Part shown: positions 7,932 through 27,495 of the stretch, one piece after another | Position numbering within the stretch: the first letter of the stretch is position 1 | How the letters are laid out: each line of letters opens with the position of its first letter | Source of the DNA: Pseudomonadota bacterium | Lineage (GTDB): Bacteria > Pseudomonadota > Gammaproteobacteria > Burkholderiales > SHXO01 | Direction of reading: 5' to 3' | Assembly: GCA_023430065.1 (NCBI GenBank) | Contig: JAEZCG010000149.1 | Coordinates: 1-27,495, forward strand | DNA length: 27,495 nt | Program-made: the position numbers and the translations under genes | The notes under the pieces: model-generated | What the model was told of the DNA's origin: nothing | Database searches by the model: none | Seen by the model: only the letters and a program-made list of their open reading frames with translations

Positions 7932-8816
7932 ATGTCACCGTGCATGCGCCTGTCATTGCCACTCGCCGCCGCTCTGCCGTGCCCAAGACAGACCGCCGAC
8001 GGCTGGTCCGCGGCCCTCGACCTGCGCTACGAGTGCCGCGAGCGGCGCACCGTCCTCGCCGCGCGCTCGCACCACGGGCCGCTGCGCGTGCAGCGCCCGT
8101 TCTACCAGGAAGGGGAAAGCGTCTGCCAGAGCATCGTCATCCACCCGCCCGGCGGGATCGTCGCCGGTGACCGCCTGGCCATCGCCGCGACCGCTGCGCG
8201 CGGTGCGCACGCCCTGTTGACCACACCCGGTGCAAGCAAGTGGTATCGCTCCACCGGCCCAGAGGCCAGCCAGGGGGTGAAGCTCTGCGTCGAGCCTGAA
8301 GCAGTCCTGGAGTGGATGCCGCTGGAATCCATCGTGTTCGACGGCGCCCGCGTCGACCAGCGCCTGCGCGTGGATCTCGCCCAGGGTGCACGCTACGTAG
8401 GCTGGGAGATCACCTGCTTCGGCCGCACCGCGTCGGGCGAGCGCTTTGCGCACGGGCGGCTGCGCCAGCGAACCGAGGTCTATCAAGGCGCACGGCCCAT
8501 CTTCGTCGAGTATGCCGACATCGAAGGCGGCAGCCGGGTGCTGGCGTCGAAGGCGGGACTGGCCGGGTACACCGTCAACGCGCTGATGCTTGCTGCCGGC
8601 TTCGATGCCTCGCGGGCGCTGATTGCGTCGCTGCGAGCCGTGCCGGCAGGAAAGGGCGACCTCGCCGGCATCACCACGCTGCCGCAGGTGACCATCGCAC
8701 GTTACCTGGGCCACTCCGCGCACGCCGCGCGCGACTGGTGCACGAACCTGTGGCGCGTGCTGCGTCCCGCCATGCTGCAGCGCGAGGCTCTGCCCCCGCG
8801 CATCTGGGCTTGTTGA
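7932..8816 (+). CDS. ureD: Urease accessory protein UreD (UreH)
   Basis: 294 residues. UreD joins UreF and UreG on the urease apoprotein and takes part in nickel delivery and lysine carbamylation. Family features: RRTVLAARSHHGPLRVQRPFY near the N end, IVIHPPGGIVAGDRLAIAAT, TTPGASKWYRS, LEWMPLESIVFDGA and the C-terminal LWRVLRPAMLQREALPPRIW. A second Met four codons in is an alternative start; neither has a clear ribosome site. It is the first gene of cluster 1 and the only ureD in the window, so the second urease must use this one or a copy beyond the right edge. Confidence 0.95.
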   Translation: MSPCMRLSLPLAAALPCPRQTADGWSAALDLRYECRERRTVLAARSHHGPLRVQRPFYQEGESVCQSIVIHPPGGIVAGDRLAIAATAARGAHALLTTPGASKWYRSTGPEASQGVKLCVEPEAVLEWMPLESIVFDGARVDQRLRVDLAQGARYVGWEITCFGRTASGERFAHGRLRQRTEVYQGARPIFVEYADIEGGSRVLASKAGLAGYTVNALMLAAGFDASRALIASLRAVPAGKGDLAGITTLPQVTIARYLGHSAHAARDWCTNLWRVLRPAMLQREALPPRIWAC

Positions 8817-8854
8817 AGCACGCGCAAGTCGAGCAATTGTAGAGAGCCAAGACG

Positions 8855-9157
8855 ATGGAGCTGACACCCCGAGAGAAGGACAAACTGCTGATCTTCACCG
8901 CGGCACTGCTGGCCGAGCGGCGCAAAGCCCGCGGCCTCAAGCTCAACTACCCGGAGGCGATCGCCTACATCACCGCCGCCATCATGGAAGGCGCGCGCGA
9001 CGGCCGCTCGGTATCGGACCTGATGGGCTACGGCGCGACGCTGCTCAAGCGCGACGAGGTGATGGAGGGCGTGCCGGAGATGATCCCGGAAATCCAGGTC
9101 GAGGCGACGTTCCCCGACGGGACGAAGCTGGTGACGGTGCATCACCCGATCGTTTGA
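8855..9157 (+). CDS. ureA: Urease gamma subunit
   Basis: 100 residues, exactly the family norm ([20 protein letters not shown] ... [18 protein letters not shown]). It is the smallest structural subunit of the (alpha-beta-gamma)3 urease, forming the outer contacts of the trimer. It lies 38 bases after ureD and is separated from ureB by an unusually long 106-base gap filled by a palindromic element. Confidence 0.97.
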
Positions 9158-9168
9158 ACAAGGCATTG

Positions 9169-9237
9169 ACCACGAAGGTCACGCACGAAGGCAAATCGAA
9201 CGAGGTGTTCTTCGTGTTCCTTCGTGACCTTCGTGGT
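9169..9237. repeat. Large imperfect inverted repeat between ureA and ureB
   Basis: The left arm ACCACGAAGGTCACG (9169-9183) pairs perfectly with CGTGACCTTCGTGGT (9223-9237). Further in, CACGAAG (9184-9190) pairs with CTTCGTG (9210-9216), leaving a six-base bulge and an 18-20 base loop: 22 pairs in all. It has no U-run, so it is not a standard terminator. The style (accacgaaggtcacgaagg) resembles dispersed intergenic palindromes of betaproteobacterial genomes; copy number cannot be tested here. Confidence 0.8.
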
Positions 9238-9263
9238 AATCAGAACTGAATCAGGGAAAAGCC

Positions 9264-9568
9264 ATGATCCCAGGTGAAATGAAAACGCAGCCCGGCGAGA
9301 TCGAACTCAATGCCGGGCGCAGGACGGTCAGCGTGACGGTGGCCAACACGGGCGATCGGCCGATCCAGGTCGGATCGCACTACCACTTCTTCGAGACGAA
9401 CGCGGCGCTCGAGTTCGAGCGGCAGCAGGCCTACGGCTTCCGCCTCAACATCCCGGCCGGCACCGCGGTGCGCTTCGAGCCCGGACAGGAACGCACGGTC
9501 GAGCTGGTGGAACTGGCCGGCGATCGCGTCGTGTACGGCTTTCTCGGCAAGGTGATGGGGAAACTCTG

Positions 9569-9569
<1 letters not shown>
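9264..9569 (+). CDS. ureB: Urease beta subunit
   Basis: 101 residues, normal length, starting [19 protein letters not shown]. The core [20 protein letters not shown] and [20 protein letters not shown] are near-invariant in urease beta chains. It forms the jelly-roll-like subunit packing between alpha chains. The stop overlaps the ureC start (TGATG), implying translational coupling with ureC, whereas the ureA side is separated by a hairpin-forming gap. Confidence 0.97.
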
Positions 9570-11275
<1,706 letters not shown>

Positions 11276-11392
11276 ACTCGACCTCCCACGGGTGTCACTC
11301 CGAGCGGGGCGCAGCGAAGCGAGGAATCCTCGCTTTCTTCCTTGCAGCGCGAGGGAGTCACCCAAGCACGACGAACGTTTCTCCCCGCAAGC

Positions 11393-11444
11393 GGAGAGGG
11401 CTGTCCGAACGCGACAGACTCCCTCTCCCCGTCGGTGGAGAGGG
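11393..11444. repeat. Alternative hairpins between ureC and ureF
   Basis: GGAGAGGG occurs at 11393-11400 and again at 11437-11444, with its complement CCCTCTCC between them at 11421-11428. The first pairing is extended by CTGTC/GACAG (11401-11405 with 11413-11417), giving about 13 pairs with a three-base bulge; the second is an 8-bp stem. The two are mutually exclusive. Just upstream (about 11292-11328) is TGTCACTCCGAGCG...GCGAGGAATCC, in the style of dispersed repeats. No U-run follows. It is either a repeat cluster or an attenuator-like switch. Confidence 0.6.
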
Positions 11445-11475
11445 CCGGGGTGAGGGGGCAGGGCAGAACACAACC

Positions 11476-12207
11476 ATGACCGCTGAAGTCATACAACTCC
11501 CATCCGACGGAGATCCCCCGCGACCCGCCGACACCCTCTCTCTCGTTCGCCTCCTCCGCCTCGCCAGTCCCGCATTCCCGGTCGGCGCCTTCGCCTACTC
11601 CCAGGGCCTGGAAACTGCCATCGCCGAAGGCTGGGTCCACGACGAAGTCTCCATCGGCGACTGGATCTGCGACGTCCTCGAATTCAACCTCGCCCGCTTC
11701 GAGGCGCCGGTGCTGCATCGCTCGATGCTCGCGTGGTCGGCCAACGACGTGGAGGAAGTGCGGCGATTGAACGACTGGTTTCTGGCCGCGCGCGAGACGG
11801 CCGAGTTTCGTGCCGAAACTGCGCAGATGGGCATTGCGCTGCGGCAGTTGTTCGAGGCGACGGAGGAGTCCAGGGTGCAGGAGGTGGCCGCGGTGAGGGC
11901 TATAGAACCCATCGCGTTCCCTACGGCGTTTGCGTTTGCGGCGGCCCGGTGGCAACTCATGCCGGCCGATGTGCTAGCAGCATATCTGTTCGCATGGGCC
12001 GAAAATCAGGTCAACGCAGCGATGAAGGGGATGCGGCTGGGGCACGTGGGGGCGCAGCGAATACTTGCGCGGGTGAGCGCATGCTTGCCGCAATTGGTTC
12101 AGCCGGCATTGCGCTGTGACCTCGAGCAGATCAACAACTTCACCCCGGTGCTTGCAATCGCAGGTTGCTTGCACGAGTCGCAGGATTCGAGGGTGTTTCG
12201 ATCTTAA
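11476..12207 (+). CDS. ureF: Urease accessory protein UreF (cluster 1)
   Basis: 243 residues from MTAEVIQLPS; the open frame is far longer upstream but that part is antisense or out of frame to ureC. The UreF signature SPAFPVGAFAYSQGLETA is at residues 31-48, and the C end HESQDSRVFRS is the typical UreF tail thought to contact UreD/UreG. UreF acts as a scaffold and fidelity factor for UreG GTPase during nickel insertion. It is the last gene of cluster 1: ureE, expected before it, and ureG, expected after it, are missing from this place. Confidence 0.95.
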   Translation: MTAEVIQLPSDGDPPRPADTLSLVRLLRLASPAFPVGAFAYSQGLETAIAEGWVHDEVSIGDWICDVLEFNLARFEAPVLHRSMLAWSANDVEEVRRLNDWFLAARETAEFRAETAQMGIALRQLFEATEESRVQEVAAVRAIEPIAFPTAFAFAAARWQLMPADVLAAYLFAWAENQVNAAMKGMRLGHVGAQRILARVSACLPQLVQPALRCDLEQINNFTPVLAIAGCLHESQDSRVFRS

Positions 12208-12400
12208 GTATCTGAGAATCCGGCACGATCAGCCGCTCCGAGCTGCTCGGACAGTGCAATCTACGGATTCAGCGCAATGCGTTCCTTCGCAGTGTATCGT
12301 CCCGCATCCCAATGAGGCGCGGTATTCCATACACTGGAGCTGTCACGCTTGACGGCAGCGTCGCGAAACTCAATTCCACCAAGTCACGGACGCAGACAGA

Positions 12401-14179
12401 ATGAGTAAGAACGATACACCCGCTGGCATCTCCCGCCGCCAGTTCCTCACCGCGACCGCCGGCGTCGCTGCCGCCTCCCTCTCCGGCCTGAAGCTCGCCA
12501 GTGCGGCCGACTCGTCCGCTCCATCCTCTGCAACCTCCGCCTCCGGATGGAAGCGCAAGCACAACATTCTGTTCGTGTTTACCGACCAGGAGCGCTACAT
12601 TCCGCAGTGGCCGGAACACATGTCGCTGCCCGGGCACGAACGCGTGCTGCGCACCGGCGTCACCTTCCGGAACCACTACTGCCCGGCGGTGATGTGCACC
12701 AGTTCGCGGGCGGTGATGCTGACCGGGTTGCAGACGCCGGACAACGGCATGTTCGAGAACGCGGACATGGCCTACGTGCCGCCGCTGTCGACGCAGACGC
12801 CGACCATCGGACACATGCTCCGCAAGGCGGGCTACTACACCGCCTACAAGGGCAAGTGGCACCTCAACCCGGAGTTCGACCGCGAGCAGATGGATCATCT
12901 GTTCACCAAGGAGATGGACGCCTACGGCTTCTCCGACTACCTGTGGCCGGGCGACGTCGTGGGCCACACCCTGGGCGGGCACGTCTACGACAACATGATC
13001 GGCGGCAGCGCGGTGTCCTGGCTGCGCAGGAACGGCCGCACATTGAGCGATGAAGGCAAGCCGTGGGCGCTGTTCGTAAGCCTGGTGAACCCGCACGACA
13101 TCATGTACTTCAACACCGATGCGCCGGCAGAGCAGGTGCAGGACAACGGCCGGCTCTTGATGCACGCGGCGCGTGCGCCGGAGCACGCGATGTATCGCCG
13201 GACCTGGGATCAGCCGCTGGCCGCGAACTTGACGCAGCCGATGGACGAGCCCGGACGGCCGAAAGCGCACGGCGAGTTCCTGCGCTCGTGGGGCTATACG
13301 CTCGGCAACATTCCGCCCGAGGCGGAGCGGTGGAACCGGTTCACCGACTACTACTTCAACTGCATCCGCTCGGTGGATCAGCAGATCCACGCCATGCTCA
13401 CCGAACTGGATGCGCTCGGTCTGACCGAGGACACCATCGTCGTGTTCACCTCCGACCACGGCGAGATGGGCGGCGCGCACGGCCTGCGCGGCAAGGGACC
13501 GTTCGCCTACGAGGAAATCACGCACCTGCCGCTGCACGTCGTGCATCCGGACGTGCAGGGCGGTGCGGGGACGAAGGCCCTTACCAGCCACATCGATCTC
13601 GTGCCGTCACTGCTCTCGATGGCGGGGGTGAATGCGACGAAGGCGGCGGAGTTCGCCGGCCGCGAGCTGCCCGGCAAGGATTTCAGTATCGCCGTGGCCG
13701 ATTACCGCACCAGCGATCTCCACACCGTGCGCGACAGCGTGCTCTTCACGTACAGTGGACTGGCGACCAACGACAGCGAATTGATCCGCCTCGTCTCCGA
13801 GGCACGGGCCGCCGGCAAGGATCCTAGAGAGGCCGTCAAGGCTGCCGGCTACCGCCCCGACCTGAAGAAGCGCGGCAGCCTGCGCATGGTGTTCGACGGG
13901 CGCCACAAGTTCACGCGCTACTTTTCCCCACTGGAGCGCAACAGTCCCAAGACGCTGGACCAGTTGTACGCGGCCAACGATGTCGAGCTGTTCGATCTCC
14001 AGTCCGACCCCAAGGAGATGACCAACCTGGGTGCGAGGAAGGGCGAGAACGCAGAGCTGGTCGCCGCGATGAGCGCCAAGCTGGAGGCGGCGATCAAGGC
14101 CGAGATCGGCATCGACGACGGACGGGAGATGCCGGAAGTCGAGGGCATCGACTGGCGCATCGACCGGATCGATTTGTAG
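12401..14179 (+). CDS. Tat-exported sulfatase-like hydrolase
   Basis: 592 residues with a twin-arginine leader (SRRQFLTATAGVAAASLSGL, residues 11-30), so it is exported folded. The sulfatase core starts at KRKHNILFVFTDQ (metal-binding Asp62, Gln63). The modification site is C99-T-S-S-R103 followed by AVMLTG; classical sites are C-x-(P/A)-x-R, so Ser replaces Pro at the third position. Later motifs are present: KGKWH, VVFTSDHGEMGGAHGLRGKG (metal Asp/His) and an arylsulfatase-like C-terminal DVELFDLQSDPKEMTNLG. If Cys99 becomes formylglycine, the enzyme would cleave sulfate or phosphonate esters; substrate unknown. It stands alone between the urease clusters, with a 193-base upstream gap in which I found only a weak TTGACG and a 7-bp inverted repeat (12291-12297 and 12329-12335). 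Confidence 0.88.
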   Translation: MSKNDTPAGISRRQFLTATAGVAAASLSGLKLASAADSSAPSSATSASGWKRKHNILFVFTDQERYIPQWPEHMSLPGHERVLRTGVTFRNHYCPAVMCTSSRAVMLTGLQTPDNGMFENADMAYVPPLSTQTPTIGHMLRKAGYYTAYKGKWHLNPEFDREQMDHLFTKEMDAYGFSDYLWPGDVVGHTLGGHVYDNMIGGSAVSWLRRNGRTLSDEGKPWALFVSLVNPHDIMYFNTDAPAEQVQDNGRLLMHAARAPEHAMYRRTWDQPLAANLTQPMDEPGRPKAHGEFLRSWGYTLGNIPPEAERWNRFTDYYFNCIRSVDQQIHAMLTELDALGLTEDTIVVFTSDHGEMGGAHGLRGKGPFAYEEITHLPLHVVHPDVQGGAGTKALTSHIDLVPSLLSMAGVNATKAAEFAGRELPGKDFSIAVADYRTSDLHTVRDSVLFTYSGLATNDSELIRLVSEARAAGKDPREAVKAAGYRPDLKKRGSLRMVFDGRHKFTRYFSPLERNSPKTLDQLYAANDVELFDLQSDPKEMTNLGARKGENAELVAAMSAKLEAAIKAEIGIDDGREMPEVEGIDWRIDRIDL

Positions 14180-14216
14180 CCGGTTCAGCCGATGCGCCGT
14201 TTTAGACGGTCCTGGA

Positions 14217-15176
14217 TCACTTTCCCGTGCGTTGGAAGCTTTGCGTGATTGAGCGAAAGTGCGGGAGGATGGCCTCGGCGCGATCGCGACCCGCCAGTCC
14301 CTGCATGATGAAATAGCCGCCCGGATCGAGGGCAATCACCTGATACAGACGGATCGGTGTTGCGTTGCGCCGATCTTGCGCATCGGCGAGCAACTCGTAG
14401 GCAGGCAGGCCGTCCACGCTCATGTTGCGGCCGGAAATGATGCGCAGGTCGCGCAGCTGGGCGGTCTGGTGTGCTCGGGTCTCCGAGAAGCGGCGCAGGT
14501 CGCCGGCGGGCGGGTTTCCAAGTGATGGGCCGACGACGTAGAGCGCTTCCCGGGGATCTGCGCTCGGGAGGACGCCGGACTCGTTGAACAGCAGCATGTT
14601 CCCCATGCGGCCGCCCAGCTTGAGGCCCGGGGCAGCGTCCACTCGAAATGCCAGCCCCTCGAACGGATCGCTCGCCCTTTCCGGGCGTGCCCAGGTCGCC
14701 GACAGCACCGCCGCGCGCATGCGGGAGGACAGATCAGCCGCGGCACTCTGCGGGAACGTTCCGACCACGAGCACCGAGGTCGAGTGATCGCCTGTCACCA
14801 GCATCCACTTGCGGTACTGTGCGCCGGCGGCGGACTGGGCCACCTCCAGCAGCTGCCCATCGCGTCCATCCACGTTGACCGCGGTGGACGAGCGCACGTC
14901 CATTCCTTTGGCGGCGAGCGCTTCCCGCGTCATGCCTTTCATCATATCCGCCGCCGGAGCCGCGATCTCGGTGACCACGATCGATGCCTGGGAACGGGCA
15001 TGTTCGAAACCTGGGAAACGATTGGAGGGCGAGAACCCTTCCGGCGGACGGAGTGCGGTCCCGGTGCCAGGCACGCGGACGGGATCCCCTGCACCTGCGT
15101 GCGTGGTGAGTACGAGTGCCAGCGACAGGCCGACAGCCCAGCGCCCCATGATGCTTGCGAACCTCGATACGTGCAT
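14217..15176 (-). CDS. Secreted protein of unknown function
   Basis: 319 residues from the second of two close ATGs; AAGGGG is seven bases before it, while the other Met, two codons earlier, would be too near that site. The N end (SRFASIMGRWAVGLSLALVL, cut after HAGA) is a signal peptide. The mature part has two similar halves in style, each holding a stretch such as VVTEIAAPAADMMKGMTREA or YQVIALDPGGYFIMQGLAGR that looks like alternating beta and helix, and it ends FRSITQSFQRTGK. It converges on the sulfatase gene with a 37-base gap. I do not recognise the family; a periplasmic location is inferred. Confidence 0.75.
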   Translation of the reverse strand: MHVSRFASIMGRWAVGLSLALVLTTHAGAGDPVRVPGTGTALRPPEGFSPSNRFPGFEHARSQASIVVTEIAAPAADMMKGMTREALAAKGMDVRSSTAVNVDGRDGQLLEVAQSAAGAQYRKWMLVTGDHSTSVLVVGTFPQSAAADLSSRMRAAVLSATWARPERASDPFEGLAFRVDAAPGLKLGGRMGNMLLFNESGVLPSADPREALYVVGPSLGNPPAGDLRRFSETRAHQTAQLRDLRIISGRNMSVDGLPAYELLADAQDRRNATPIRLYQVIALDPGGYFIMQGLAGRDRAEAILPHFRSITQSFQRTGK

Positions 15177-15278
15177 GCGCATTCCCCTTGATTTGCCGGC
15201 CGCGAGTTTGCCATACAAATCGCTCATTCCGGCGCTCATGCGCGTGCTTTTCTCGCGAGTCGCCTCCCACAAGGCGTG

Positions 15279-15935
15279 CTAGGTCACACCGCCAGTCTTC
15301 CGCGGCATCGCCTCCATTCCCAGGATCTCGTTGGCGTTGATCACCGCATCGGCGATTTCCTCGGTGGTCACCCGCTTGGCCATCGCCTGATCGCGGATGA
15401 CCTTGTAGGCGGCCTCCTCCGATAGTCCACGCGTGCTCATCAGGATCTGCTTGGCCTTGGCGATCTTGCGCAGCCCGTTGAGGCGCTGCTCGAGCTTGCC
15501 GATGTATTTCTCCTGCGCGCAGCGCTCCTCTGCCAGGTTCCGCGCCAGCACCACCGAGGTGAGCAGCCCGAACGATTTCACCGGCGAAGCGACCACCGCC
15601 GTCGCCTTGAGCCGCAGCACCGCCTCGATGATGGTCGGATTCTCGTAGTTGACCACGGCGATGATGGGCGGCAGGTCCTCGCGCTTGAGCCAGGGCAGAT
15701 CCATCGACATGACTTCCGGGCGCATCGCGAAGAATACGATGTCCACTTCGTCAGGCAGCTGTTCGCGCGGCGGCCAGGTCGCACGTAGCTGGCAGCCGAT
15801 GCGCTGCAGCTGCGCGCTCAGTTCCTGCCCGTCCTGGTCGTCCGGGTGGATCAGCAACACGCGCAGCGAGCGCAGCTCGCGCAGCATGTGCGGCGTGCCG
15901 CTGCCGTGACGGCGCCGGGTCGACGGCGTGCTCAT
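15279..15935 (-). CDS. amiR: AmiR-type ANTAR-domain transcription antiterminator
   Basis: 218 residues; the ATG overlaps the amiC stop in an ATGA, so the two are translationally coupled. The N-terminal part (LRSLRVLLIHPDDQDGQEL, then RIGCQLRATWPPREQLPDEV) resembles P. aeruginosa AmiR, a pseudo-receiver in which the phospho-acceptor Asp is not conserved (VDIVFFAMRP). A coiled coil (EEKYIGKLEQ-type region) leads into the C-terminal ANTAR helices (KAKQILMSTRGLSEEAAYKV, then EEIADAVINANEIL). AmiR binds nascent leader RNA to prevent termination and is held inactive by AmiC until an amide appears. A matching leader with hexaloop hairpin and terminator lies at 17395-17556, ahead of the divergent operon. 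Confidence 0.93.
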   Translation of the reverse strand: MSTPSTRRRHGSGTPHMLRELRSLRVLLIHPDDQDGQELSAQLQRIGCQLRATWPPREQLPDEVDIVFFAMRPEVMSMDLPWLKREDLPPIIAVVNYENPTIIEAVLRLKATAVVASPVKSFGLLTSVVLARNLAEERCAQEKYIGKLEQRLNGLRKIAKAKQILMSTRGLSEEAAYKVIRDQAMAKRVTTEEIADAVINANEILGMEAMPRKTGGVT

Positions 15936-17608: not shown

Positions 17609-18799
17609 ATGAGCAAGGTCACGAGAAGAGAGTTCATCAAGGCCGGGACCGTCGCGGCGGCAGCGGCCACCGTATCTGCGCCGTTCATCTGGCCGAAGGG
17701 CGCGCAGGCAGCGGATCCCATCAAAGTCGGCATCCTGCATTCGTTGACCGGCACCATCGCCATCGCCGAAGCGTCGGTGGTCGACGCCGAGAAGATGGCC
17801 ATCGAGGAGATCAACAAGGCAGGCGGTGTCATGGGTCGCCCATTGGAGGTGATCGTCGAGGACGGCGCCAGCGATTGGCCGACCTTTGCCGAGAAGGCGC
17901 GCAAGCTGCTGGAACGCGACAAGGTGGCGGCTATCTTCGGCTGCTACACCTCGGCCTCGCGCAAGGCCGTCCTGCCGGTGATGGAGCGCTACAAGGGCCT
18001 GCTCTACTACCCCACCTACTACGAAGGACTGGAGCAGTCTCCCAACATCATGTACACCGCGCAGGAGGGCACACAGTCGGCGATCGCCTCTCTCGACTGG
18101 CTGTACAAGAACAAGGGCAAAACGTTCTATCTCATCGGCTCGGACTACATCTGGCCGCGCACGATGAACAAGATCGCGAACCTGCACGTCAAGAAGATCG
18201 GCGGAAAGATCGTCGGCGAGAGCTACTATCCCCTCGGCTCCATCGAGTTCGCTTCCGAGATCAACAAGATCAAGGCAGCCAAGCCCGACGTCATCTGGAG
18301 CACCGTGGTAGGAGGCAGCAACGTGGCCTTCTACAAGCAGCTCCAGGCGGCCGGTATCAACGGCAAGAACCAGGCGCTATGTGCGATGGCGGTATCCGAG
18401 GAGGAAGCGTCGGGTATCGGCGCCGAGAACCTCGAGGGCTTCATGTCGTGCATGGGTTACTTCCAGAGCCTGAAGAACCCCGCCAACGACAAGTTCGTCA
18501 AGGCGTTCAAGGCCAAGTACGGCGCGAACCGTGTCGTGGGCGACACCATGGCGTGCGGCTATACCTCGGTGTACTTGTGGAAACTCGCGGTCGAGAAGGC
18601 GACGAGCCTGGAGGTACCGAAGGTGGTGGCGGCCTCGTCCGATCTGGGCTTCGACGCCCCGGAAGGCAAGATCAAGGTTCACAAGAGCAACCATCACCTG
18701 TGGAAGCACGCGCGCATCGGCACATTCCGCAGGGACGGGCAGATCGACATGATTTACGAGTCGACGCTGATCGAGCCGAATCCCTTTCCGAAGTTCTAG
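17609..18799 (+). CDS. urtA: Urea/short-chain amide ABC transporter, substrate-binding protein
   Basis: 396 residues. The start MSKVTRREFIKAGTV carries a twin-arginine leader with cleavage after the AQA of PKGAQAADP, so the protein is exported folded. GAAAGGAG stands seven bases before the ATG. The mature protein belongs to the UrtA/FmdD branch of leucine-type binding proteins: IKVGILHSLTGTIAIAEAS, VEDGASDWPTFAEKARKLL, FGCYTSASRKAVLPVMERY, LLYYPTYYEGLEQSPNIMYT, YLIGSDYIWPRTMNKIA. UrtA proteins bind urea and FmdD binds formamide/acetamide; sequence alone does not settle which. It is the first gene after the antitermination leader, and its AmiC homologue lies in the opposite direction. A strong hairpin follows the stop. 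Confidence 0.85.
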   Translation: MSKVTRREFIKAGTVAAAAATVSAPFIWPKGAQAADPIKVGILHSLTGTIAIAEASVVDAEKMAIEEINKAGGVMGRPLEVIVEDGASDWPTFAEKARKLLERDKVAAIFGCYTSASRKAVLPVMERYKGLLYYPTYYEGLEQSPNIMYTAQEGTQSAIASLDWLYKNKGKTFYLIGSDYIWPRTMNKIANLHVKKIGGKIVGESYYPLGSIEFASEINKIKAAKPDVIWSTVVGGSNVAFYKQLQAAGINGKNQALCAMAVSEEEASGIGAENLEGFMSCMGYFQSLKNPANDKFVKAFKAKYGANRVVGDTMACGYTSVYLWKLAVEKATSLEVPKVVAASSDLGFDAPEGKIKVHKSNHHLWKHARIGTFRRDGQIDMIYESTLIEPNPFPKF

Positions 18800-18934: not shown

Positions 18935-19843
18935 ATGACGCCCGAGATCCTCGCCATGCAGGCCTTCAACGGCCTGAGCCTGTTCACCATCCTGGTGCTG
19001 ATGGCGCTGGGGCTGGCCATCGTGTTCGGGTTGATGGGCGTGATCAACATGGCGCACGGCGAGCTGATGGCGCTGGGCGCTTACATGACGTACGCCACCT
19101 CCATCGTCTTCGAGCGCTTCGCCCCCGGCATGATGGACATCTACTTCGTAGTCGGGATCGTCGTCGCTTTCTGCGTGACGTTCGTATTCGGCTATATCCT
19201 CGAACGCGGCTTCATCCGCTTTCTCTACAAGCGGCCTCTCGACACCATGCTCGCGACGTGGGGGCTGAGTCTCATCCTGCAGCAGGTGTTCCGCCACGTT
19301 TTCGGCCCCAAGGAAGTGGGCGTCCCGACGGTGTCCTGGCTGCAGGGCGCCTGGCAGCCGTCTTTCTTCCCCGGAGCGTCGTTTCCCCTGAGTCGCATCT
19401 TCATCGTTGCGCTCGCGCTCGCAGTGGGCGCTGCGGTCTGGTACCTCCTGTTCAAGACGCGCTGGGGGTTGCGCATTCGCGCCGTCACGCAGAACCGCGC
19501 GATGAGCAGTGCGGCCGGTATCAACACCGAACGCGTCGATGCGCTGACATTCGCTCTGGGTTGCGGCCTGGCGGGCATCGCAGGCAGTTCCTTCACCATG
19601 CTCGCCTCCACCGGACCCGTCACTGGCCAGCAGTACGTCGTGGACACCTTCATCGTGGTGGTGTTCGGTGGCGTGGAGAGCCTGCTCGGCACCTTCCTGT
19701 CGGCCTTCGTCATCGGTCAGCTGCAGTCGACGTTCGAGTTCCTGACGACGGGCTCCATGGCGAAGGCGTCCATCCTGTTGCTGGTGATCGTCGCGCTCTA
19801 CTTCCGGCCTAACGGCCTGTTCGCTGCGAAGGTGAGAAGGTAG
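18935..19843 (+). CDS. urtB: Urea/amide ABC transporter permease, LivH/UrtB type
   Basis: 302 residues, hydrophobic throughout, with about eight membrane spans. Family marks are QAFNGLSLFTILVLMALGLA at the N end, VFGLMGVINMAHGELMALGA, LLFKTRWGLRIRAVTQNRAM (the cytoplasmic coupling loop), LTFALGCGLAGIAGSSFTML and VVVFGGVESLLGTFLSAFVI. It lacks the N-terminal extension of many UrtB proteins and is the compact form seen in FmdE-like systems. It forms the inner-membrane channel with the next gene product. The ribosome site is poor, probably because of the repeat DNA just before it. The next gene starts directly at its stop. Confidence 0.85.
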   Translation: MTPEILAMQAFNGLSLFTILVLMALGLAIVFGLMGVINMAHGELMALGAYMTYATSIVFERFAPGMMDIYFVVGIVVAFCVTFVFGYILERGFIRFLYKRPLDTMLATWGLSLILQQVFRHVFGPKEVGVPTVSWLQGAWQPSFFPGASFPLSRIFIVALALAVGAAVWYLLFKTRWGLRIRAVTQNRAMSSAAGINTERVDALTFALGCGLAGIAGSSFTMLASTGPVTGQQYVVDTFIVVVFGGVESLLGTFLSAFVIGQLQSTFEFLTTGSMAKASILLLVIVALYFRPNGLFAAKVRR

Positions 19844-20971
19844 ATGGGCAATGGTGTCATCGCGGCCGGCGGTCACGCCGCAGCCGGACCGAACGAAACG
19901 ATAATGAGTGCCCGGCTGGGGAAATTGGGTTTCCCGCTCCTGGCCCTGCTGCTGCTCATCGTGGTTCCACTTTCGCTGAGCGAGTTCCGCCTCAGCCTTG
20001 CGGCCAAGTATCTGTGTTTCGCCTTTCCCGCCATTGGCATCGTGCTGATCTGGGGCTACGGCGGCATCCTCAGCCTGGGTCAGGGTATCTTCTTCGGCCT
20101 GGGCAGCTACATGATGGCGATGTTCATGAAGCTGGAGTCGACCGCTAGCGGCAGTTCGGCGCAGGCGCTGGCTGAGTTCTTCGGCTCGAACCTTCCGGAC
20201 TTCATGGTGTGGAACAGCGTCGAGAAGCTGCCCTGGTGGTGGGAGCCGTTCCACTACTTCTGGTTCACGCTCCCGGCCATCGTCCTGCTGCCCGCGGCGC
20301 TCGCCTTCATTCTCGCCTACGCAAACTTCCGCAAGCGCGTCGGCGGTGTTTACTTCTCCATCATCACGCTGTCGCTGTCGGCGATCATGGCCATCGTCAT
20401 TATCGGCCAGCAAGGCGTCACCGGCGGCGTCAACGGCATCACCGACTTCAAGACTTTTCTAGGCATCAGCCTCGAGGAAGACGGCATTCGCACCAAGTTC
20501 TACTTCGTGACGGTGGTCCTGCTGCTCGCCGCAGTGCTGCTCGGTTCCTTCATCGTCCGAAGCCGCCTGGGCAAGGTGCTGGTCGCCATCCGGGACCGCG
20601 AAGACCGGGTCCGCTTCTCCGGCTACGACCCTGCCCTGTTCAAGGCCTTCATCTTCGCGGTGGCTGCCGTGTTCGCCTCTGTCGGCGGGGCGTTGTTCAC
20701 CATCCAGGTCGGCCTTGCCTCGCCTTCCCTGGTGGGCATCGTCCCGTCGATCGAGATGGTGATCTACGCGGCCGCAGGCGGCCGTCTGTCGCTGATCGGT
20801 GCCGTCTACGGTGCCGTCCTCGTGGGCGCCGCGAAGACGTTCTTCTCCGAGAACTTCCTCGAGTACTGGCTGTACTTCATCGGCGGCCTGTTCATCGTCA
20901 TCGTCGTGTTTCTGCCAGACGGGCTGGCCGGCTTGCTGAGCCGCGTGACGGGCAAGCAGAGGAAAGCATGA
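19844..20971 (+). CDS. urtC: Urea/amide ABC transporter permease, LivM/UrtC type
   Basis: 375 residues if translation starts at the ATG directly following the urtB stop; a second Met at 19904 (MSARLGKLGFPLLALL) is a plausible alternative giving 355 residues. Highly hydrophobic, about nine spans. UrtC-type motifs are LCFAFPAIGIVLIWGYGGIL, SLGQGIFFGLGSYMMAMFMK, GVYFSIITLSLSAIMAIVII, VLVAIRDREDRVRFSGYDPA (coupling loop) and IVPSIEMVIYAAAGGRLSLI. It pairs with the preceding permease. Its stop overlaps the urtD start (ATGA), so expression is coupled. Confidence 0.87.
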   Translation: MGNGVIAAGGHAAAGPNETIMSARLGKLGFPLLALLLLIVVPLSLSEFRLSLAAKYLCFAFPAIGIVLIWGYGGILSLGQGIFFGLGSYMMAMFMKLESTASGSSAQALAEFFGSNLPDFMVWNSVEKLPWWWEPFHYFWFTLPAIVLLPAALAFILAYANFRKRVGGVYFSIITLSLSAIMAIVIIGQQGVTGGVNGITDFKTFLGISLEEDGIRTKFYFVTVVLLLAAVLLGSFIVRSRLGKVLVAIRDREDRVRFSGYDPALFKAFIFAVAAVFASVGGALFTIQVGLASPSLVGIVPSIEMVIYAAAGGRLSLIGAVYGAVLVGAAKTFFSENFLEYWLYFIGGLFIVIVVFLPDGLAGLLSRVTGKQRKA

Positions 20972-21708
20972 GCGAGCAGCTGATCCTCTCGGTCGAGGAC
21001 TTGACCGTCTCCTTCGATGGGTTCAAGGCGGTCGACAACCTCAATTTCTACGTCGAGGAGAACGAACTGCGCTGCGTGATCGGACCGAACGGCGCAGGCA
21101 AGACCACGCTGCTCGACATGATCTGCGGCAAGACCAAGCCGACCACGGGCACGATCAAGTTCAAGCGTCATCAGCTGCAGGACATGATCGAATACCAGAT
21201 CACGCGCCTCGGCGTCGGTCGCAAGTTCCAGAACCCGTCGGTGTACGAGGATCTCACGGTGTTCGAGAACCTCGAGATCTCCTATCCGAAGAGGCGCGGC
21301 ATCCTGGGTTCACTGTTCTTCCGTCGGGACAGGGCGCTGCTGGAGAAGATCGACAAGGTCGCCGAGGAGATCTTCCTGCACGAGGTCCTGCGGCATAAGG
21401 CCGGACAGCTCAGCCACGGGCAAAAACAGTGGCTGGAGATCGGCATGCTGCTGATGCAGGACCCGGAACTGCTTCTGCTCGACGAGCCCGTCGCGGGCAT
21501 GAGTTTGAAGGAGCGCGAGCAGACGGCGCAACTGCTCAACCGCATCTCGAAGGGGCGATCGATCGTCGTCATCGAACACGACATGGCCTTCGTGCGCATG
21601 ATCGCGCACAAGGTCACCGTTTTGCACCAGGGTAAGCTGCTCGCCGAGGGCAGCATGGACCAGGTTCAGAGCGACCCGAAGGTCATCGAAGTCTATCTCG
21701 GGCACTGA
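20968..21708 (+). CDS. urtD: Urea/amide ABC transporter ATP-binding protein UrtD
   Basis: 246 residues from MSEQLILSVEDLTVSFDGFK; the frame is open further up but that part overlaps urtC. Walker A is GPNGAGKTT (residues about 39-47); VGRKFQNPSVYEDLTVFENL is the Q-loop region typical of UrtD. The signature is LSHGQ instead of LSGGQ, as in UrtD proteins, and Walker B is LLLLDEPVAGM followed by the switch region VVIEHDMAFV. It powers uptake together with UrtE. Confidence 0.93.
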   Translation: MSEQLILSVEDLTVSFDGFKAVDNLNFYVEENELRCVIGPNGAGKTTLLDMICGKTKPTTGTIKFKRHQLQDMIEYQITRLGVGRKFQNPSVYEDLTVFENLEISYPKRRGILGSLFFRRDRALLEKIDKVAEEIFLHEVLRHKAGQLSHGQKQWLEIGMLLMQDPELLLLDEPVAGMSLKEREQTAQLLNRISKGRSIVVIEHDMAFVRMIAHKVTVLHQGKLLAEGSMDQVQSDPKVIEVYLGH

Positions 21709-21718
21709 GGCCGTCGAC

Positions 21719-22408
21719 ATGCTCGCAGTCCACAACATCAACGTCTTCTACGGGGACAGCCACGTCATCCGCAACGTCGCGTTCCGGCTCGGGCCGCAGG
21801 AAACCATTGCCATCATGGGGCGCAACGGGATGGGCAAGACCACCTTGCTCAAGTCGCTCATCGGCATGCTGCCAGTGCGCAGTGGCAAGGTGAGCCTGAA
21901 TGAGCGCGAGCTCACTCACGCCAGGAGTCACGAACGGGTTTCAGCCGGAATGGGCTTCGTGCCACAGGGGCGAATGATCTTCCCTTACCTCACAGTCGAG
22001 GAGAACATTCTCACCGGCATGGAGAACGCGGCTGAAAAGTCGGTGCCTGGTTACATCTACGACGTGTTCCCGGTGCTGAACGAGATGAAGCGCCGCCGCG
22101 GCGGGAACCTTTCGGGCGGCCAGCAGCAGCAGCTGGCGATCGCGCGCGCCCTGGTGAGCAATCCCAAGGTGCTGATCCTGGACGAGCCGACGGAAGGCAT
22201 CCAGCCGTCGATCATCAAGGAAATCGCGCGAGCGCTGAACACGCTGAAGACGCAACGCGGGTTCTCGCTGGTGGTCTCGGAGCAGGTGCTCAGTTTCGCG
22301 ATGGAGATCGCCGACCGATTTCTGATCATGGAGAAGGGCGAGTTCGTGCATGAGCAGACCCGCGCGACCGCTGACACGGCAAGGATCCATGCCTACCTCA
22401 CGGTGTAG
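21719..22408 (+). CDS. urtE: Urea/amide ABC transporter ATP-binding protein UrtE
   Basis: 229 residues, the second ATPase. Walker A GRNGMGKTT (residues 34-42), VPQGRMIFPYLTVEENILTG, signature LSGGQQQQLAIARAL, Walker B VLILDEPTEGIQPSIIKEIA and switch region VVSEQVLSFA. The GMGKTT variant and the TEGIQPSII stretch are typical of UrtE. Ten bases separate it from urtD; a gap of 108 bases without a T-run terminator precedes amiE. Confidence 0.93.
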   Translation: MLAVHNINVFYGDSHVIRNVAFRLGPQETIAIMGRNGMGKTTLLKSLIGMLPVRSGKVSLNERELTHARSHERVSAGMGFVPQGRMIFPYLTVEENILTGMENAAEKSVPGYIYDVFPVLNEMKRRRGGNLSGGQQQQLAIARALVSNPKVLILDEPTEGIQPSIIKEIARALNTLKTQRGFSLVVSEQVLSFAMEIADRFLIMEKGEFVHEQTRATADTARIHAYLTV

Positions 22409-22516: not shown

Positions 22517-23557
22517 ATGCTACACGGAGACATTTCGAGCAGTAACGACACCGTCGGCGTCGCCGTCGTCAACTACAAGATGCCGCGGCTGCACACCAAG
22601 AAGGAAGTGCTCGACAACGCCCGCAAGATCGCGGAGATGATCGAGGGAATGAAGGTGGGGCTGCCGGGCATGGACTTGGTCATCTTCCCCGAGTACAGCA
22701 CGCACGGGATCATGTATGACTCCAAGGAGATGTACGAGACGGCCTCGAACGTGCCGGGCGAGGAGACTGAAATCTTCGCCGCTGCGTGCCGCAAGGCCAA
22801 GGTGTGGGGCGTGTTCTCGCTGACCGGCGAGCGCCACGAAGATCACCCCAACAAGGCGCCGTACAACACGCTGATCCTGATGAACGACAGAGGCGAGATC
22901 GTGCAGAAGTACCGCAAGATCATGCCCTGGGTGCCCATCGAAGGCTGGTACCCGGGCAACTGCACCTATGTGTCGGAGGGGCCAAAGGGGCTGAAAGTCA
23001 GCCTGATCATCTGCGACGATGGCAACTATCCCGAGATATGGCGCGACTGCGCGATGAAGGGAGCCGAACTGATCGTGCGCTGCCAAGGCTACATGTACCC
23101 GGCAAAAGATCAACAAGTGATCATGGCCAAGGCCATGGCATGGGCCAACAACGTCTACGTCGCGGTGGCCAATGCTGCCGGCTTCGACGGCGTGTATTCC
23201 TACTTCGGCCATTCGGCCATCGTCGGCTTCGATGGCCGCACGCTGGGCGAGTGTGGCGAGGAGGAGTACGGCATCCAGTTTGCGCAACTCTCCAAGAGTC
23301 TCATCCGCGACGCGCGCAAGAACGCCCAGTCCAACAACCATCTGTTCAAGCTGCTGCATCGCGGCTACACCGGCAAGATCAATTCGCGCGAGGGCGATGA
23401 GGGCGTTGCCGCGTGCCCGTACGATTTCTACAAGAAGTGGATCACCGATCCGGAAGGCACCAAGAAGATGGTGGAAGCCATCACGCGTCCGACCGTCGGA
23501 ACGGAGGAGTGCCCGATCGAAGGGATTCCCAACCCGAAGACGAAGGCCCACGCCTAG
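22517..23557 (+). CDS. amiE: Aliphatic amidase AmiE
   Basis: 346 residues, the same length as P. aeruginosa AmiE, starting [27 protein letters not shown] lies six bases upstream, and a TTG one codon earlier can be ignored. It is a nitrilase-superfamily enzyme that hydrolyses short-chain amides (acetamide, propionamide) to acid and ammonia in the cytosol. The catalytic triad is in place at the family numbering: Glu59 (FPEYS), Lys134 (QKYRKI) and Cys166 (LIICDDGNY). The sequence is recognisably close to the Pseudomonas enzyme along its length ([38 protein letters not shown]). Its place between an ABC importer and urease genes, under the ami-type leader, suggests imported amides are used as nitrogen source. 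Confidence 0.96.
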
Positions 23558-23663: not shown

Positions 23664-24236
23664 GTGAATGCAGTATACGAGTTGCTCGGCTTCGCCTCGG
23701 TATCGACAAGAAGTGACACTCACGACCAAGTAATGAACCAGTTGCTGCTAGAGTCCGAGGTCAAGTACCGACTCTTGACCAACGGCACGATGCTGAAGAT
23801 CGACCACATCGTCGGCCTCGCGACCGACCCGGACATTTCCGATGCCCTGCACCGCCTCGAGCACGCCGGTGCGGTCGAGGTCGTCACGCTCAGCGAACTG
23901 GACACGCATCGCCATCACCTGCGGGCGATCACCGACCGCGGCACCGAGTGCGCGGTACGCCTGCCGCGCACGCAGCACCTGAGCGATGGGGCCGTGCTGT
24001 TTCTCGACACGGCGCGCGCGGTCGTGGTGCGCATGGCTGAGAAGAAGTGGCTGGTGCTGGAAGCGTCGGACGTCGCCTCGGCGCTGGAAGTCGGCTACTT
24101 CGCCGGAAACATGCATTGGAAGGTGGAGTTCGACGGGCCGCGCCTGCGCATCGCCCTCCAGGGGCCGGTCGAGTCGTACCTGGAGCGCCTCGCGCACATC
24201 ACGGCCGATGGACGTGTGAAGCGGGTCGAGTCGTGA
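23664..24236 (+). CDS. ureE: UreE-like urease metallochaperone with N-terminal extension
   Basis: 190 residues from a GTG with AGGAG 13 bases upstream, or 167 residues from the ATG at 23733 (MNQLLLESEVKY); the start is unsettled. The second half is UreE: AITDRGTECAVRLPRTQHLSDGAVLF (shown in parts) is the peptide-binding domain, and EVGYFAGNMHWKVEF carries His151 of the conserved G-N-x-H nickel motif. There are two departures. A stretch of about 45 residues with beta and helix character (MLKIDHIVGLATDPDISDAL) precedes the UreE domain, and the His-rich tail of many UreE proteins is absent (the end is VKRVES). It would deliver nickel for the downstream urease, and perhaps for cluster 1, which has no ureE. 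Confidence 0.75.
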   Translation: MNAVYELLGFASVSTRSDTHDQVMNQLLLESEVKYRLLTNGTMLKIDHIVGLATDPDISDALHRLEHAGAVEVVTLSELDTHRHHLRAITDRGTECAVRLPRTQHLSDGAVLFLDTARAVVVRMAEKKWLVLEASDVASALEVGYFAGNMHWKVEFDGPRLRIALQGPVESYLERLAHITADGRVKRVES

Positions 24237-24246
24237 AGCTGAGAGC

Positions 24247-24966
24247 ATGACCTCCGACGCTCGCTTGCAGGCGACGATGTCCGCTAACGTCGATGCAGAA
24301 ACCATGCTGTTCGCCTGCCTGCAGAACGCAGACAGCTTCTTTCCCGCGGGGGCGATCGCCTTCTCCTGGGGATTGGAGACGTTGATCACGGACGGCCTGG
24401 TACACGGTGCGGGTCAGGTCGAGGCCTTTTTGCTCGGCCAGCTGGTGCAGCGCTGGGACGTTGCCGACCGGCCAGCGCTGGTCGCCGCACACCGGACGTG
24501 GGACCTCGATGACGCCTGCGAGATCGACGCGCAGGTCGAGGCCATGACGCTGGCCAGCGAACTGCGCGAGGGGTCCAGGCGGGCGGGCGCTGCGCTGCTC
24601 AGCGTGCACGGGCGGCTCGGCACGGACGGTGTGCCGGCGCTTCAGGAGGCCGTTCGAGGCGGCCGCGCAACCGGGCATCTGGCCGTGGTGCAGGGGTGGG
24701 TATGGCGCGGTGCGGGGATGAGCGAGATGGCCGCGCAGATCGTGTCTGCGCACAGCTTCTGCGTGGCGCTGCTGGGGGCGGCGTTGCGCCTGGGCTGCAT
24801 CGGCCATCTGCATGCCCAGCGCATCCTGCTGGCGGCGCGCTCGACGATGGTCGAACTGCTGCGCACGCCCGCCCTCGCGGTCGACGCGATGTACGGCTGC
24901 GTACCCGCGACGGAGATCGCCGCGATGCGCCACGAGACGCAGGCCTCGCGCTTGTTTGCCAATTGA
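24247..24966 (+). CDS. ureF: Divergent urease accessory protein UreF (cluster 2)
   Basis: 239 residues, starting ten bases after the ureE-like gene. The UreF signature is recognisable but altered: [17 protein letters not shown] (residues 30-46) against SPAFPVGAFAYSQGLET in cluster 1. The C end [13 protein letters not shown] keeps the HETQ-x-SRLF tail. The middle, [20 protein letters not shown] and the section up to the QRILL helix, follows the all-helical UreF pattern. The distance from cluster 1 UreF means it is not a recent duplicate and probably serves its own urease. It ends 40 bases before the fused structural gene. Confidence 0.85.
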
Positions 24967-25006: not shown

Positions 25007-25711
25007 ATGCTGCTGACGCCCACCGAGATCGAGCGGCTGACCATCTATGTCGCCGCAGAGATGGCACGCAAGCGCAAGGCCAAGGGGCTCAAGCTCAACC
25101 ATCCGGAGGCGACCGCCTACATCGTGGATGAGATCCTGGAAGGTGCGCGCGAAGGGCGCTCGGTCGCGGAACTGATCGGATTCGGGTCCACGCTTCTGTG
25201 CCGGGACGATGTGATGTCGGGCGTCGCAGAGCTGATGCCGATGCTTCAGGTCGAGGCGACGTTTCCGGACGGCACCAAGCTGGTCACCGTGCACGAGCCG
25301 ATCAGGCCCGGCAAGGGCACGACGAGAGAGGCCGGCGTGCACATGACGCCGGGCGAAATCATCCCCGCCGACGGCGATATCGAGATCAACGCCGGCAGGA
25401 CGAAAGCCAGGGTCAGGGCCCTCAACACCGGCGACCGCCCGATCCAGGTGGGCAGCCACTTCCATTTCTTCGAGGTGAACAAGGCGCTCGACTTCGACCG
25501 GGCGCAGGCCTTCGGCATGCACCTCGACATCCCCGCCGGAACCGCCGTGCGCTTCGAGCCCGGCGAAGCGAAGGAGGTCGAACTGGTCGCTTTCGGCGGC
25601 ACCGGCGAGATATTCGGGTTGAACGGCCTGACCAACGGCTCCACCCGCAGCGCGAACCGCAAGGAGGAGGCGCTGCGGCTGGCGCGCGAACGTGGGTACA
25701 GGGGTGCCTGA
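25007..25711 (+). CDS. ureAB: Fused urease gamma-beta subunit (cluster 2)
   Basis: 234 residues; ATG with AAGGA eight bases upstream. Residues 1-100 are a complete gamma domain ([20 protein letters not shown] ... [17 protein letters not shown]), 101-112 a linker, and from Met113 ([18 protein letters not shown]) a beta domain with [20 protein letters not shown] and [20 protein letters not shown]. The C end ([15 protein letters not shown]) is longer than in the stand-alone beta chain of cluster 1 and resembles the tail of Helicobacter UreA, which is also a gamma-beta fusion. Contrast with cluster 1, where the same subunits are separate genes. Confidence 0.95.
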
Positions 25712-25821: not shown

Positions 25822-27495
25822 ATGGCGAGAATGTCCCGTAAGGAATACGCGCAGCTCTACGGTCCCACCAAGGGCGACGGCGTGCGCCTCGGTGACACCT
25901 CGCTGATCGCCGAGATCGAACACGACCACGCGGTGCCGGGCGACGAGTGCCTGCACGGCGGCGGCAAGACGCTGCGTGACGGGCTGGGGCTCACGCCCGG
26001 CTTCGACAGTGCCCAGGGTGCGCTGGACATGCTGATCAGCAACGCCGTCATCATCGATCCCGTGCTCGGCGTGGTGAAGGGCGACATCGGCATCAAGGAC
26101 GGCAGGATCGTCGCCATCGGCAAGGCGGGCAACCCGGCCACCATGGACGGCGTGCATCCGAAGCTCATCTGCGGCGCGGCTACCACGGTGCGCGACGCCG
26201 AAGGGCTGATCGCCACGCCGGGAGGTATTGACGTGCACGTGCACTTCGACAGCGCCCAGCTGGTCGAGCACGCCATCGCCTCGGGCCTGACCACGATGAT
26301 CGGCGGCTCGCTCGGCCCGATCACGGTGGGCATCGACTGCGGCGGCGAGTGGAACGTCGGCAAGATGCTCCAGGCCTCGGAGGCCTGGCCGATGAATTTT
26401 GGTTTTCTCGGCCGCGGCAACACCTCCAAGCCGCGCTCGATCTATGACCAGATGCGCGGCGGCTGCATCGGCCTCAAGATCCACGAGGACTGGGGTGCGA
26501 TGCCGGCGGTCATCGACACCTGTCTCAGCGTGGCCGACGAGCTCGACTTCCAGGTTCAGCTGCACACCGATACGCTAAACGAGTCGGGCTTTTTGGAGGA
26601 CACGCTGGCTGCGATCAACGGCCGCACCATCCACATGTATCACACGGAAGGTGCGGGCGGCGGCCATGCGCCCGACATCATCGCGGTGGCCGGGCAGATG
26701 AACTGCCTGCCGTCGTCGACCAATCCGACCAATCCGTACACGGTGAATACGTTCGACGAGCATCTAGACATGATCATGGTGTGCCATCACCTCAATCCCG
26801 CGGTGCCGGAGGACGTAGCCTTCGCCGAGTCGCGCATCCGCGCGCAGACCATCGCTGCGGAAGACATCCTGCACGACATGGGCGCGATCTCCATGCTCGG
26901 CTCGGACAGCCAGGGCATGGGGCGCATCAACGAGGTGATCTGCCGGACTTGGCAACTCGCCTCGAAGATGAAGGATCAACGCGGCCGGATGCCGGAAGAG
27001 AAGAGCCGCATCGGTGACAACGAACGCATCAAGCGCTACATCGCCAAGTACACGATCAACGCCGCGCGCTCTTTCGGAATCGACGCCTATATCGGCTCGC
27101 TGGAGAGCGGCAAGCTCGCCGATGTCGTGCTGTGGCGACCCGGCTTCTTTGGCATCAAGCCGGAATTGGTGATCAAGGGCGGATTCATCGCCTGGGGTGC
27201 CATGGGAGACAGCGCGGCAAGTCTGATGACCTGCGAGCCGCTGGCGATGCGTCCGCAGTGGGGCGCATTCGGCCAGGCGCGCAAGCACCTGTCGGTCAAC
27301 TTCGTCGCCCAGGCGGCGGTGGACTACGGCGTGCGCGAACGCCTCGGACTGGTGAAGGCGTGCCTGCCGGCGAAAGGCACGCGCAAGCTGAACAAGACGC
27401 ACATGCTGCACAATGATGCCTGCCCCAACATCACGGTGAACCCGCAGACCTTCGATGTGATGATCGACGGCAATGTGATCACCTGCGAACCGGCC
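25822..27495 (+). CDS. ureC: Divergent urease alpha subunit UreC2, 3' end cut by window
   Basis: 558 codons read without a stop to the window end; about ten residues are probably missing. It starts [20 protein letters not shown]. Every metal ligand and catalytic residue of urease is kept: His139/His141 (DVHVHF), Lys219 ([10 protein letters not shown]), His221, the His of [12 protein letters not shown] and [14 protein letters not shown], Cys321-His322 (MVCHHLNP), Arg of AESRIR, and Asp362. Differences cluster around the substrate: the canonical [18 protein letters not shown] is replaced by [15 protein letters not shown], three residues shorter; DSQAMG is DSQGMG (Gly365); YGEE near the N end is PGDE; and NASIPTPQP becomes AASLMTCEP. 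An active hydrolase is likely; urea as substrate is not certain. It follows the fused gamma-beta gene by 110 bases. Confidence 0.93.

Follow-up and report, generated by a model that had tools for sequence, protein, structure and literature searches.

Urease, a textbook enzyme, is regarded as acting almost exclusively on urea, and its chemistry requires a carbamylated lysine, two nickel ions and a flap histidine. In ureases, the carbonyls of Ala167 and Ala363 (numbering of Klebsiella aerogenes UreC, KAU) take hydrogen bonds from the distal nitrogen of urea. Haloarcula is among the organisms with urease activity. The amiC/amiR/amiE regulon of Pseudomonas aeruginosa resembles the locus described here, where an AmiC-like sensor and AmiE occur together with a putative AmiR-like regulator; that regulon is not known to contain urease genes. 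The gene order ureEF(AB)CGD was drawn in 2008 for PSYR2197 of P. syringae B728a (Psyr_2195-2205) and for genes 1962/4442 of Bradyrhizobium BTAi1 (PMC2492869), and Psyr_2195-2205 has been named a urease gene cluster that converts urea to ammonia, the other cluster being its duplicate (PMC4554452). The accessible portions of these two papers mention, for the PSYR2197 cluster, neither the loop, the glycine and the amide link discussed below nor an assay. Brucella ure2 resembles the cluster studied here in being a second urease operon; deletion of ure1 reportedly left no urease activity that could be detected from its product, and in the published tree it clusters with UreC of the Yersinia type (PMC1983905, PMC2492869). 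The literature, as far as accessible, yielded no report of the loop, the glycine, the amide link, or an assay or kinetics of such enzymes, an absence that weighs little given that subscription journals lay mostly outside the search.

The window (the whole stretch of 27,495 nt that was analysed, from SHXO01, Burkholderiales) contains two urease clusters, a canonical one (cluster 1) and a second one encoding the alpha subunit UreC2 (cluster 2; Table 1). Cluster 2 starts with divergent amiC/amiR genes on the minus strand, followed by a five-gene importer, amiE, ureE, ureF, a fused ureAB and ureC2, with amiE directly upstream of ureE2. The second clusters of P. syringae B728a and Bradyrhizobium BTAi1 have the same gene order and a fused gamma-beta subunit. 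Two P. syringae loci of our collection (L039 and L055) encode a UreC2 with the GPITVGID loop and the glycine described below, from which we infer that PSYR2197 of B728a is probably of the same type. The ureC2 reading frame runs open to the window end, the full-length database protein (P0002) having 570 residues; the UreG and UreD positions lie beyond that end, and UreE2, UreF2 and UreAB2 are inside. Among the open reading frames listed from ureC1 to the amiR gene (window 7932-15272), no ureE, ureF or ureG was seen. The AmiR-like gene (15279-15896 scanned) matched no NCBIfam family at E 0.001, and its plasmid counterparts are annotated ANTAR. E59, K134 and C166 of AmiE are what we take to be the Glu-Lys-Cys triad.

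Table 1 Features of the window.
Feature	Position	Strand	Basis or remarks
Cluster 1	7932-11275		ureD, A, B and canonical ureC
UreC1, canonical paralog	9569..11275	+	ATTCTPG, DSQAMG; in-window control
AmiR-like regulator, antiterminator type, 218 aa	15279..15935	-	position adjoining AmiC; similar genes near UreC2 elsewhere
AmiC-like amide/urea sensor, 384 aa	15932..17086	-	best solved match AmiC 1pea, 378.7 bits
UrtA-type binding protein of importer	17609..18799	+	TIGR03407, 509.3 bits (cut-off 492.75)
UrtB-type permease	18935..19843	+	TIGR03409, 383.6 bits (cut-off 250.3)
UrtC-type permease	19844..20971	+	TIGR03408, 421.1 bits (cut-off 296.2)
UrtD-type ATPase	20968..21708	+	TIGR03411, 381 bits (cut-off 304.1)
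UrtE-type ATPase	21719..22408	+	TIGR03410, 328 bits (cut-off 285.8)
AmiE, aliphatic amidase	22517..23557	+	NF009802, 722.1 bits (cut-off 427); E59, K134, C166 present
UreE2, nickel delivery	23664..24236	+	NF009752, 172.6 bits (cut-off 162)
UreF2, activation	24247..24966	+	similarity and position versus relatives annotated UreF family in plasmids
UreAB2, fused gamma-beta subunit	25007..25711	+	NF009671 (bifunctional urease subunit gamma/beta), 350.5 bits (cut-off 243)
UreC2, Gly-type urease alpha subunit	25822..27495	+	558/570 residues in window
Remodelled substrate loop of UreC2, residues 163-177	26308..26352	+	alignment
Gly365 codon of UreC2 (= KAU Ala363)	26914..26916	+	alignment

With 816.5 bits, UreC2 lies above the curated cut-off (680) of the urease-alpha equivalog model TIGR01792/PF00449, and it is 50-57% identical to canonical UreC in structural alignments; its predicted structure has the UreC fold, with a pLDDT of about 75-82 in the loop region. 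The preliminary description of this DNA had claimed a complete metal site together with an altered loop, and alignment to KAU confirmed both parts. All nickel ligands (H139, H141, K219, H248, H274 and D362) are kept, K219 being the lysine expected to be carbamylated, as are the flap Cys-His pair (C321, H322), H221, D223 and R338 (H221 and R338 correspond to KAU His219 and Arg336). UreC2 thus shares its fold, nickel ligands, flap Cys-His and Arg with the canonical UreC of K. aerogenes, S. pasteurii, H. pylori and plants, which differ from it in having an ATT-type loop and Ala363 and in lying on the opposite side of a branch in the trees that hold K. aerogenes UreC. Residues 163-177 lack ATTCTPG and are three residues fewer than in UreC1, ITVGIDCG standing where ATTCTPG with Ala167 stands in canonical UreC, and the pocket alanine of DSQAMG (KAU Ala363) is Gly365. 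The description of ATTCTPGPW as near-universal holds for the solved ureases compared (the ATT stretch is seen in K. aerogenes, K. pneumoniae, jack bean, pigeon pea and H. mustelae), but haloarchaeal exceptions exist. The hydrogen-bonding argument attached to Gly365 was wrong as worded, since a change from Ala to Gly keeps the backbone carbonyl and loses a methyl group. Because the segment with the Ala167 carbonyl is swapped for one with Asp172 and Gly365 loses that methyl, the distal-nitrogen side of the pocket is predicted to be wider and more acidic, and it would suit a substituted nitrogen or a urea-like compound of greater basicity.

A genome scan gave 390 relatives confirmed by tblastn, and the best 80 of these, 80-95% identical to UreC2, were kept. 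By record title they are alpha-, beta- and gammaproteobacteria, many of them close Pseudomonas. GPITVGID and Gly365 are invariant in all of these best 80 of 390 relatives, and GPITVGID is followed by Cys in 79 of them and by Ser in the remaining one. An assembly or sequencing error as the source of Gly365 is ruled out, as is chance, because the same Gly occurs in 80/80 related loci. The metal and catalytic residues that we checked are kept in all 80 close relatives and in the window protein, the UreC2 frames matched in 26 genomes contain no stops, and accessory genes adjoin. These observations argue against UreC2 being a catalytically dead or structural paralog, which we regard as the least probable of all readings, even though some Gly-type paralogs have Ala, Ser or Val in place of the flap Cys and one (P0269) has lost a nickel ligand.

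Additional loop types emerged from a profile search and from second UreC copies of these genomes (HGILMAIDSGG, GAAFAVDSG, MGPLFAIDCGG, GPKTVGIECPG, GPTTVPIASTG, GPHFDVSCSG and GPVFDVGSG), all with Gly at the DSQ(A)MG position, and it is among these that the flap replacements are found. In an alignment of 514 rows, which contains many near-copies and the window protein, the 349 rows with loops of 17-18 residues all have Gly and the 165 with loops of 21 residues all have Ala; ATT is present in 163 of the latter, the other two rows being a single Pontibaca protein present twice. An acidic loop residue occurs in 45 of 46 short-loop representatives versus 3 of 23 long-loop ones, and all 39 canonical control loci have ATT[CV] and DSQAMG. 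The phylogeny bore out a separate branch for UreC2: in a tree of 69 representatives from which the loop and DSQ columns had been removed, short-loop/Gly and long-loop/Ala sequences were split by one branch (support 100/99), and in a tree with haloarchaeal and plasmid rows (55 rows) Gly/Ala was still a single change, with weaker support (87/87, 90% of bootstrap trees), both trees being without an outside root. By sequence and phylogeny, the Gly type stands as a genuine separate branch within a known enzyme family, and no proven urease with the same short loop and Gly was found among the sequences examined. Of 398 Pseudomonadota genomes drawn evenly, 12 had a match to the Gly marker (7 of the matches in a UreC, 5 elsewhere), and UreC at E 1e-100 was found in 143 of the same number of genomes, with at most three candidates scored per genome.

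In two of the three haloarchaeal UreCs fetched (L222 and L223), the loop is four residues shorter than in K. aerogenes and ATT and Ala are kept; the former, UreC of Haloarcula hispanica pHH400 (59% identity), shares the shorter loop and a similar post-HxH stretch with UreC2 but retains ATT and Ala and falls on the Ala side of the tree. Loop length was therefore rejected as the defining trait, and the absence of ATT together with Gly is a better mark than shortening. The post-HxH residues of UreC2 (FDSAQL) are unlike KAU, but haloarchaeal UreC has a similar FNSAQL, so these changes were rejected as a mark of a new substrate. The third haloarchaeal UreC (L226) is odd, with Ala but AASTTAG.

Several other unusual paralogs were encountered. 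The Natrinema zhouii UreC just mentioned (L226:3001-4707) combines its AASTTAG loop with TDALAMG and a flap Ala, and the second UreC of G024 (L149:8913-10619; Pontibaca salina by locus L073) has a long loop, GPTEGSKATLATPG, with SDGQAMG and a flap Ala. Type F UreC has a flap Ser and the loop GPTTVPIAST or GATTVPIAST (L231, L227, L230, L224) and is plasmid-borne in Enterobacter, Ancylobacter, Comamonas and Aminobacter, with the plasmids of the first three typed conjugative.

We searched the surroundings of the 80 loci (best 80 of 390; tblastn, E 1e-12, 30% coverage) for genes of amide, nitrile and urea-forming metabolism, covering 1375 kb for UreC2 and 335 and 390 kb for the two control sets. 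A gene for AmiE, an amidase-signature protein, DMFase, nitrile hydratase or a ureohydrolase was present near UreC2 in 48/80 loci, and in 36/45 of those of at least 19 kb (the other 35 being shorter); the same test with canonical UreC was positive in 2/19 same-genome loci and 0/20 other controls. This contrast is an association and not a measured rate, since the families were preselected from neighbours of Gly-type UreC and related Pseudomonas make up many of the 80 loci. The queries came from the window or from those Gly-type loci, the canonical loci were searched for these families alone, and the control loci were chosen from high-scoring UreCs, not at random. One of the positive same-genome controls (L193) overlaps the UreC2 cluster of its genome, and the other (L191; AmiE 78%, ureohydrolase 34%) counts as a genuine exception. 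The genes concerned were those for amidase-signature proteins (21/80, 19 at 35% identity or more), AmiE (18/80), the DMFase large subunit (9/80, assigned by PF20254) and ureohydrolases (4/80, one at only 30% identity); tblastn found nitrile hydratase in none of the 80. UreG was found near UreC2 in 70/80 and UreD in 69/80 relatives. With stricter identity, AmiC was found in 39/80 and AmiR in 30/80 loci, each in 0/20 controls; a looser test gave AmiR-like genes beside UreC2 in 31/80, and at a loose cut-off AmiC also matched 10/19 and 12/20 controls, at 29-37% except for L193, matches that we take for cross-hits of UrtA. The earlier observation that UreC2 shares an operon with an amide-type regulator, importer and amidase is thus backed by AmiC-like regulators and amide enzymes at related loci.

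Urea slowly inactivates aliphatic amidases, and UreC2 might accordingly be a scavenger that shields AmiE from urea and keeps it active, as the position of AmiE just upstream of ureE2 and its presence in 18/80 loci would allow. We consider this very improbable: 62/80 loci have no AmiE nearby, though 35/80 are shorter than 19 kb, and the loop change would be left unexplained.

Other Gly types also have amide-related neighbours. An amidase was found near type G in 5/5 and near type H in 2/2 loci, some of which are cut by the stretch end and one of which is the source of the query. Annotations add an amidase and two AmiC at a Pleomorphomonas locus, an acetamidase/formamidase on a Rhizobium tumorigenes plasmid, and nitrilase-family genes beside type F UreC on Ancylobacter and Enterobacter plasmids. 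Several unrelated amide-hydrolase families (AmiE, amidase signature, DMFase, nitrilase-family and acetamidase/formamidase) adjoin Gly-type UreC; near the type B to E copies (L143, L144, L145, L159 and L160), no amidase, AmiE, DMFase or nitrile hydratase was found. Nitrile hydratase with a CobW protein occurs in two nearly alike type G loci, and the nitrile hydratase and amidase matches of L158 and L152 are self-matches, since queries come from those loci. Purine-related genes were seen on two plasmids, allantoin genes beside UreC2 in Aminobacter and urate/allantoin genes in Methylobacterium. At an identity of at least 50%, GMA-synthetase-like and glxD-like genes were found in 1/80 loci, on one plasmid, and in Stutzerimonas such genes lie some 17 kb from UreC2; with so few glnT/glxD neighbours, N-methylurea was dropped as a firm substrate call.

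Some arrangements are recorded here in their own right. In L157 and L158, genes for nitrile hydratase alpha, split beta-like proteins and a CobW chaperone stand between Gly-type UreC and an ABC importer with an amidase. The loci with a DMFase large subunit include L075 and L078 (Methyloversatilis), L028 (Caballeronia) and L033 (Stutzerimonas); in L075 and L078 the gene is upstream, on the same strand, within the gene run leading into ureE. Two ureohydrolase-family genes (L160:1-3558) precede a type A ureE-F-AB-C-G-D set, with a second Gly-type UreC about 10 kb away. A CbbQ/NorQ-type AAA ATPase (PF08406) and a large putative VWA partner are each found near UreC2 in 16/80 loci and near canonical UreC in 0/39 (for example L027:8792-9616 and L042:4309-6108, with similar genes in other loci); the large protein is annotated VWA in L142 and is without a Pfam match in L042. 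The pair perhaps serves in the activation of UreC2 or AmiE.

All five importer subunits of the window exceed the curated cut-offs for the urea transporter UrtABCDE, and urea-binding proteins are among the nearest solved matches of its UrtA. UrtA at least 55% identical to that of the window is found near UreC2 in 39/80 loci and in 0/20 other canonical controls, and UrtA near canonical ureC, L193 apart, is 38-45% identical to it. The importer subfamily is not constant, because five type A loci (L033, L034, L053, L070 and L073) have UrtA at only 39-41%. Judged by sequence identity, the importer mostly falls into a subfamily of its own though it lies above the urea-transporter cut-offs. In G006, the two urease clusters stand side by side, each with a UrtABCDE set of its own, which we read as a pair of import routes that differ in ligand or regulation. 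A single UreG above cut-off was found there, adjoining UreC2, so the two enzymes may share these maturation genes, or a second UreG is missing from the assembly.

These importer scores, together with the purine/allantoin and ureohydrolase neighbours, are compatible with urea as the substrate. UreC2 could then be a true urease that is differently regulated, induced by amides and perhaps of high affinity, the loop change being neutral or tuning affinity, with urea entering through the UrtABCDE-type importer or arising from purines or guanidines. The complete catalytic residues and the shortened loop tolerated in haloarchaeal UreCs favour the same reading, and so does the coexistence survey in part. 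Among 26 UreC2 genomes that we chose from the 80 loci, 23 have another full-length UreC, verified as canonical in 19. In the seven genomes without a verified canonical UreC, the Gly type may therefore be the urease of the cell: the other copies are all Gly types in G001, G012 and G023, there is an odd Ala-type one in G024, and nothing else was found in three. On the other hand, a differently regulated urease is disfavoured by a different loop and Gly strictly kept in 80/80 relatives (best 80 of 390) across three proteobacterial classes, by the verified canonical UreC that coexists in 19/26 genomes and in the window, by a separate importer per urease cluster in G006, and by the rarity of the tested amide-enzyme families near canonical UreC. 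We therefore regard a true urease as a serious but less probable reading.

Our preferred reading, which we hold to be somewhat more probable than not, is that UreC2 is a nickel hydrolase of urease fold, belonging to the distinct Gly-type branch and taking part in the scavenging of amide and urea nitrogen. The rebuilt loop, the separate branch and the amide-use operon mean that UreC2 may act on something besides urea, and the balance tips modestly towards a substrate other than plain urea, preferably an N-substituted urea (N-methylurea-like) or another urea-like amide. Of the original proposal of a urease-like enzyme for substituted ureas or amides, the remodelling, the branch and the association with amide genes stand; the non-urea substrate is conjectural.

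We propose that AmiC/AmiR-type regulation would turn on the cluster 2 operon, that the UrtABCDE-type transporter would bring in small amide- or urea-like compounds, and that AmiE would split simple carboxamides. UreC2, matured by UreE2/F2 and, as in relatives, UreG/UreD, would act with the fused UreAB2 in the nickel-dependent hydrolysis of a urea-type compound to ammonia, presumably as in urease, with carbamylated Lys219, two nickel ions, a bridging hydroxide and flap His322. Regulation, nickel loading, activity, pocket shape and substrate are in this scheme deduced from the observed sequence, phylogeny, predicted fold and gene context.

A broader reading, which we put slightly below an even chance, is that the whole Gly-type branch, annotated as urease subunit alpha, is made up of nickel enzymes that hydrolyse urea-like compounds rather than urea and that diversified by loop swapping. 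The fixed Gly and the nearly always acidic loop residue would have been kept, and several subtypes would be teamed with their own amide or nitrile hydrolases and importers; candidate substrates would be N-alkylureas and ureas derived from nitriles/cyanamides or guanidines.

Should the Gly-type branch indeed act on other compounds, it would illustrate how a dinickel site with a carbamylated lysine changes substrate, and it would add a route for the breakdown of substituted ureas and amides. Surveys of ureolysis, in which ureC is the marker, would then miscount part of its signal.
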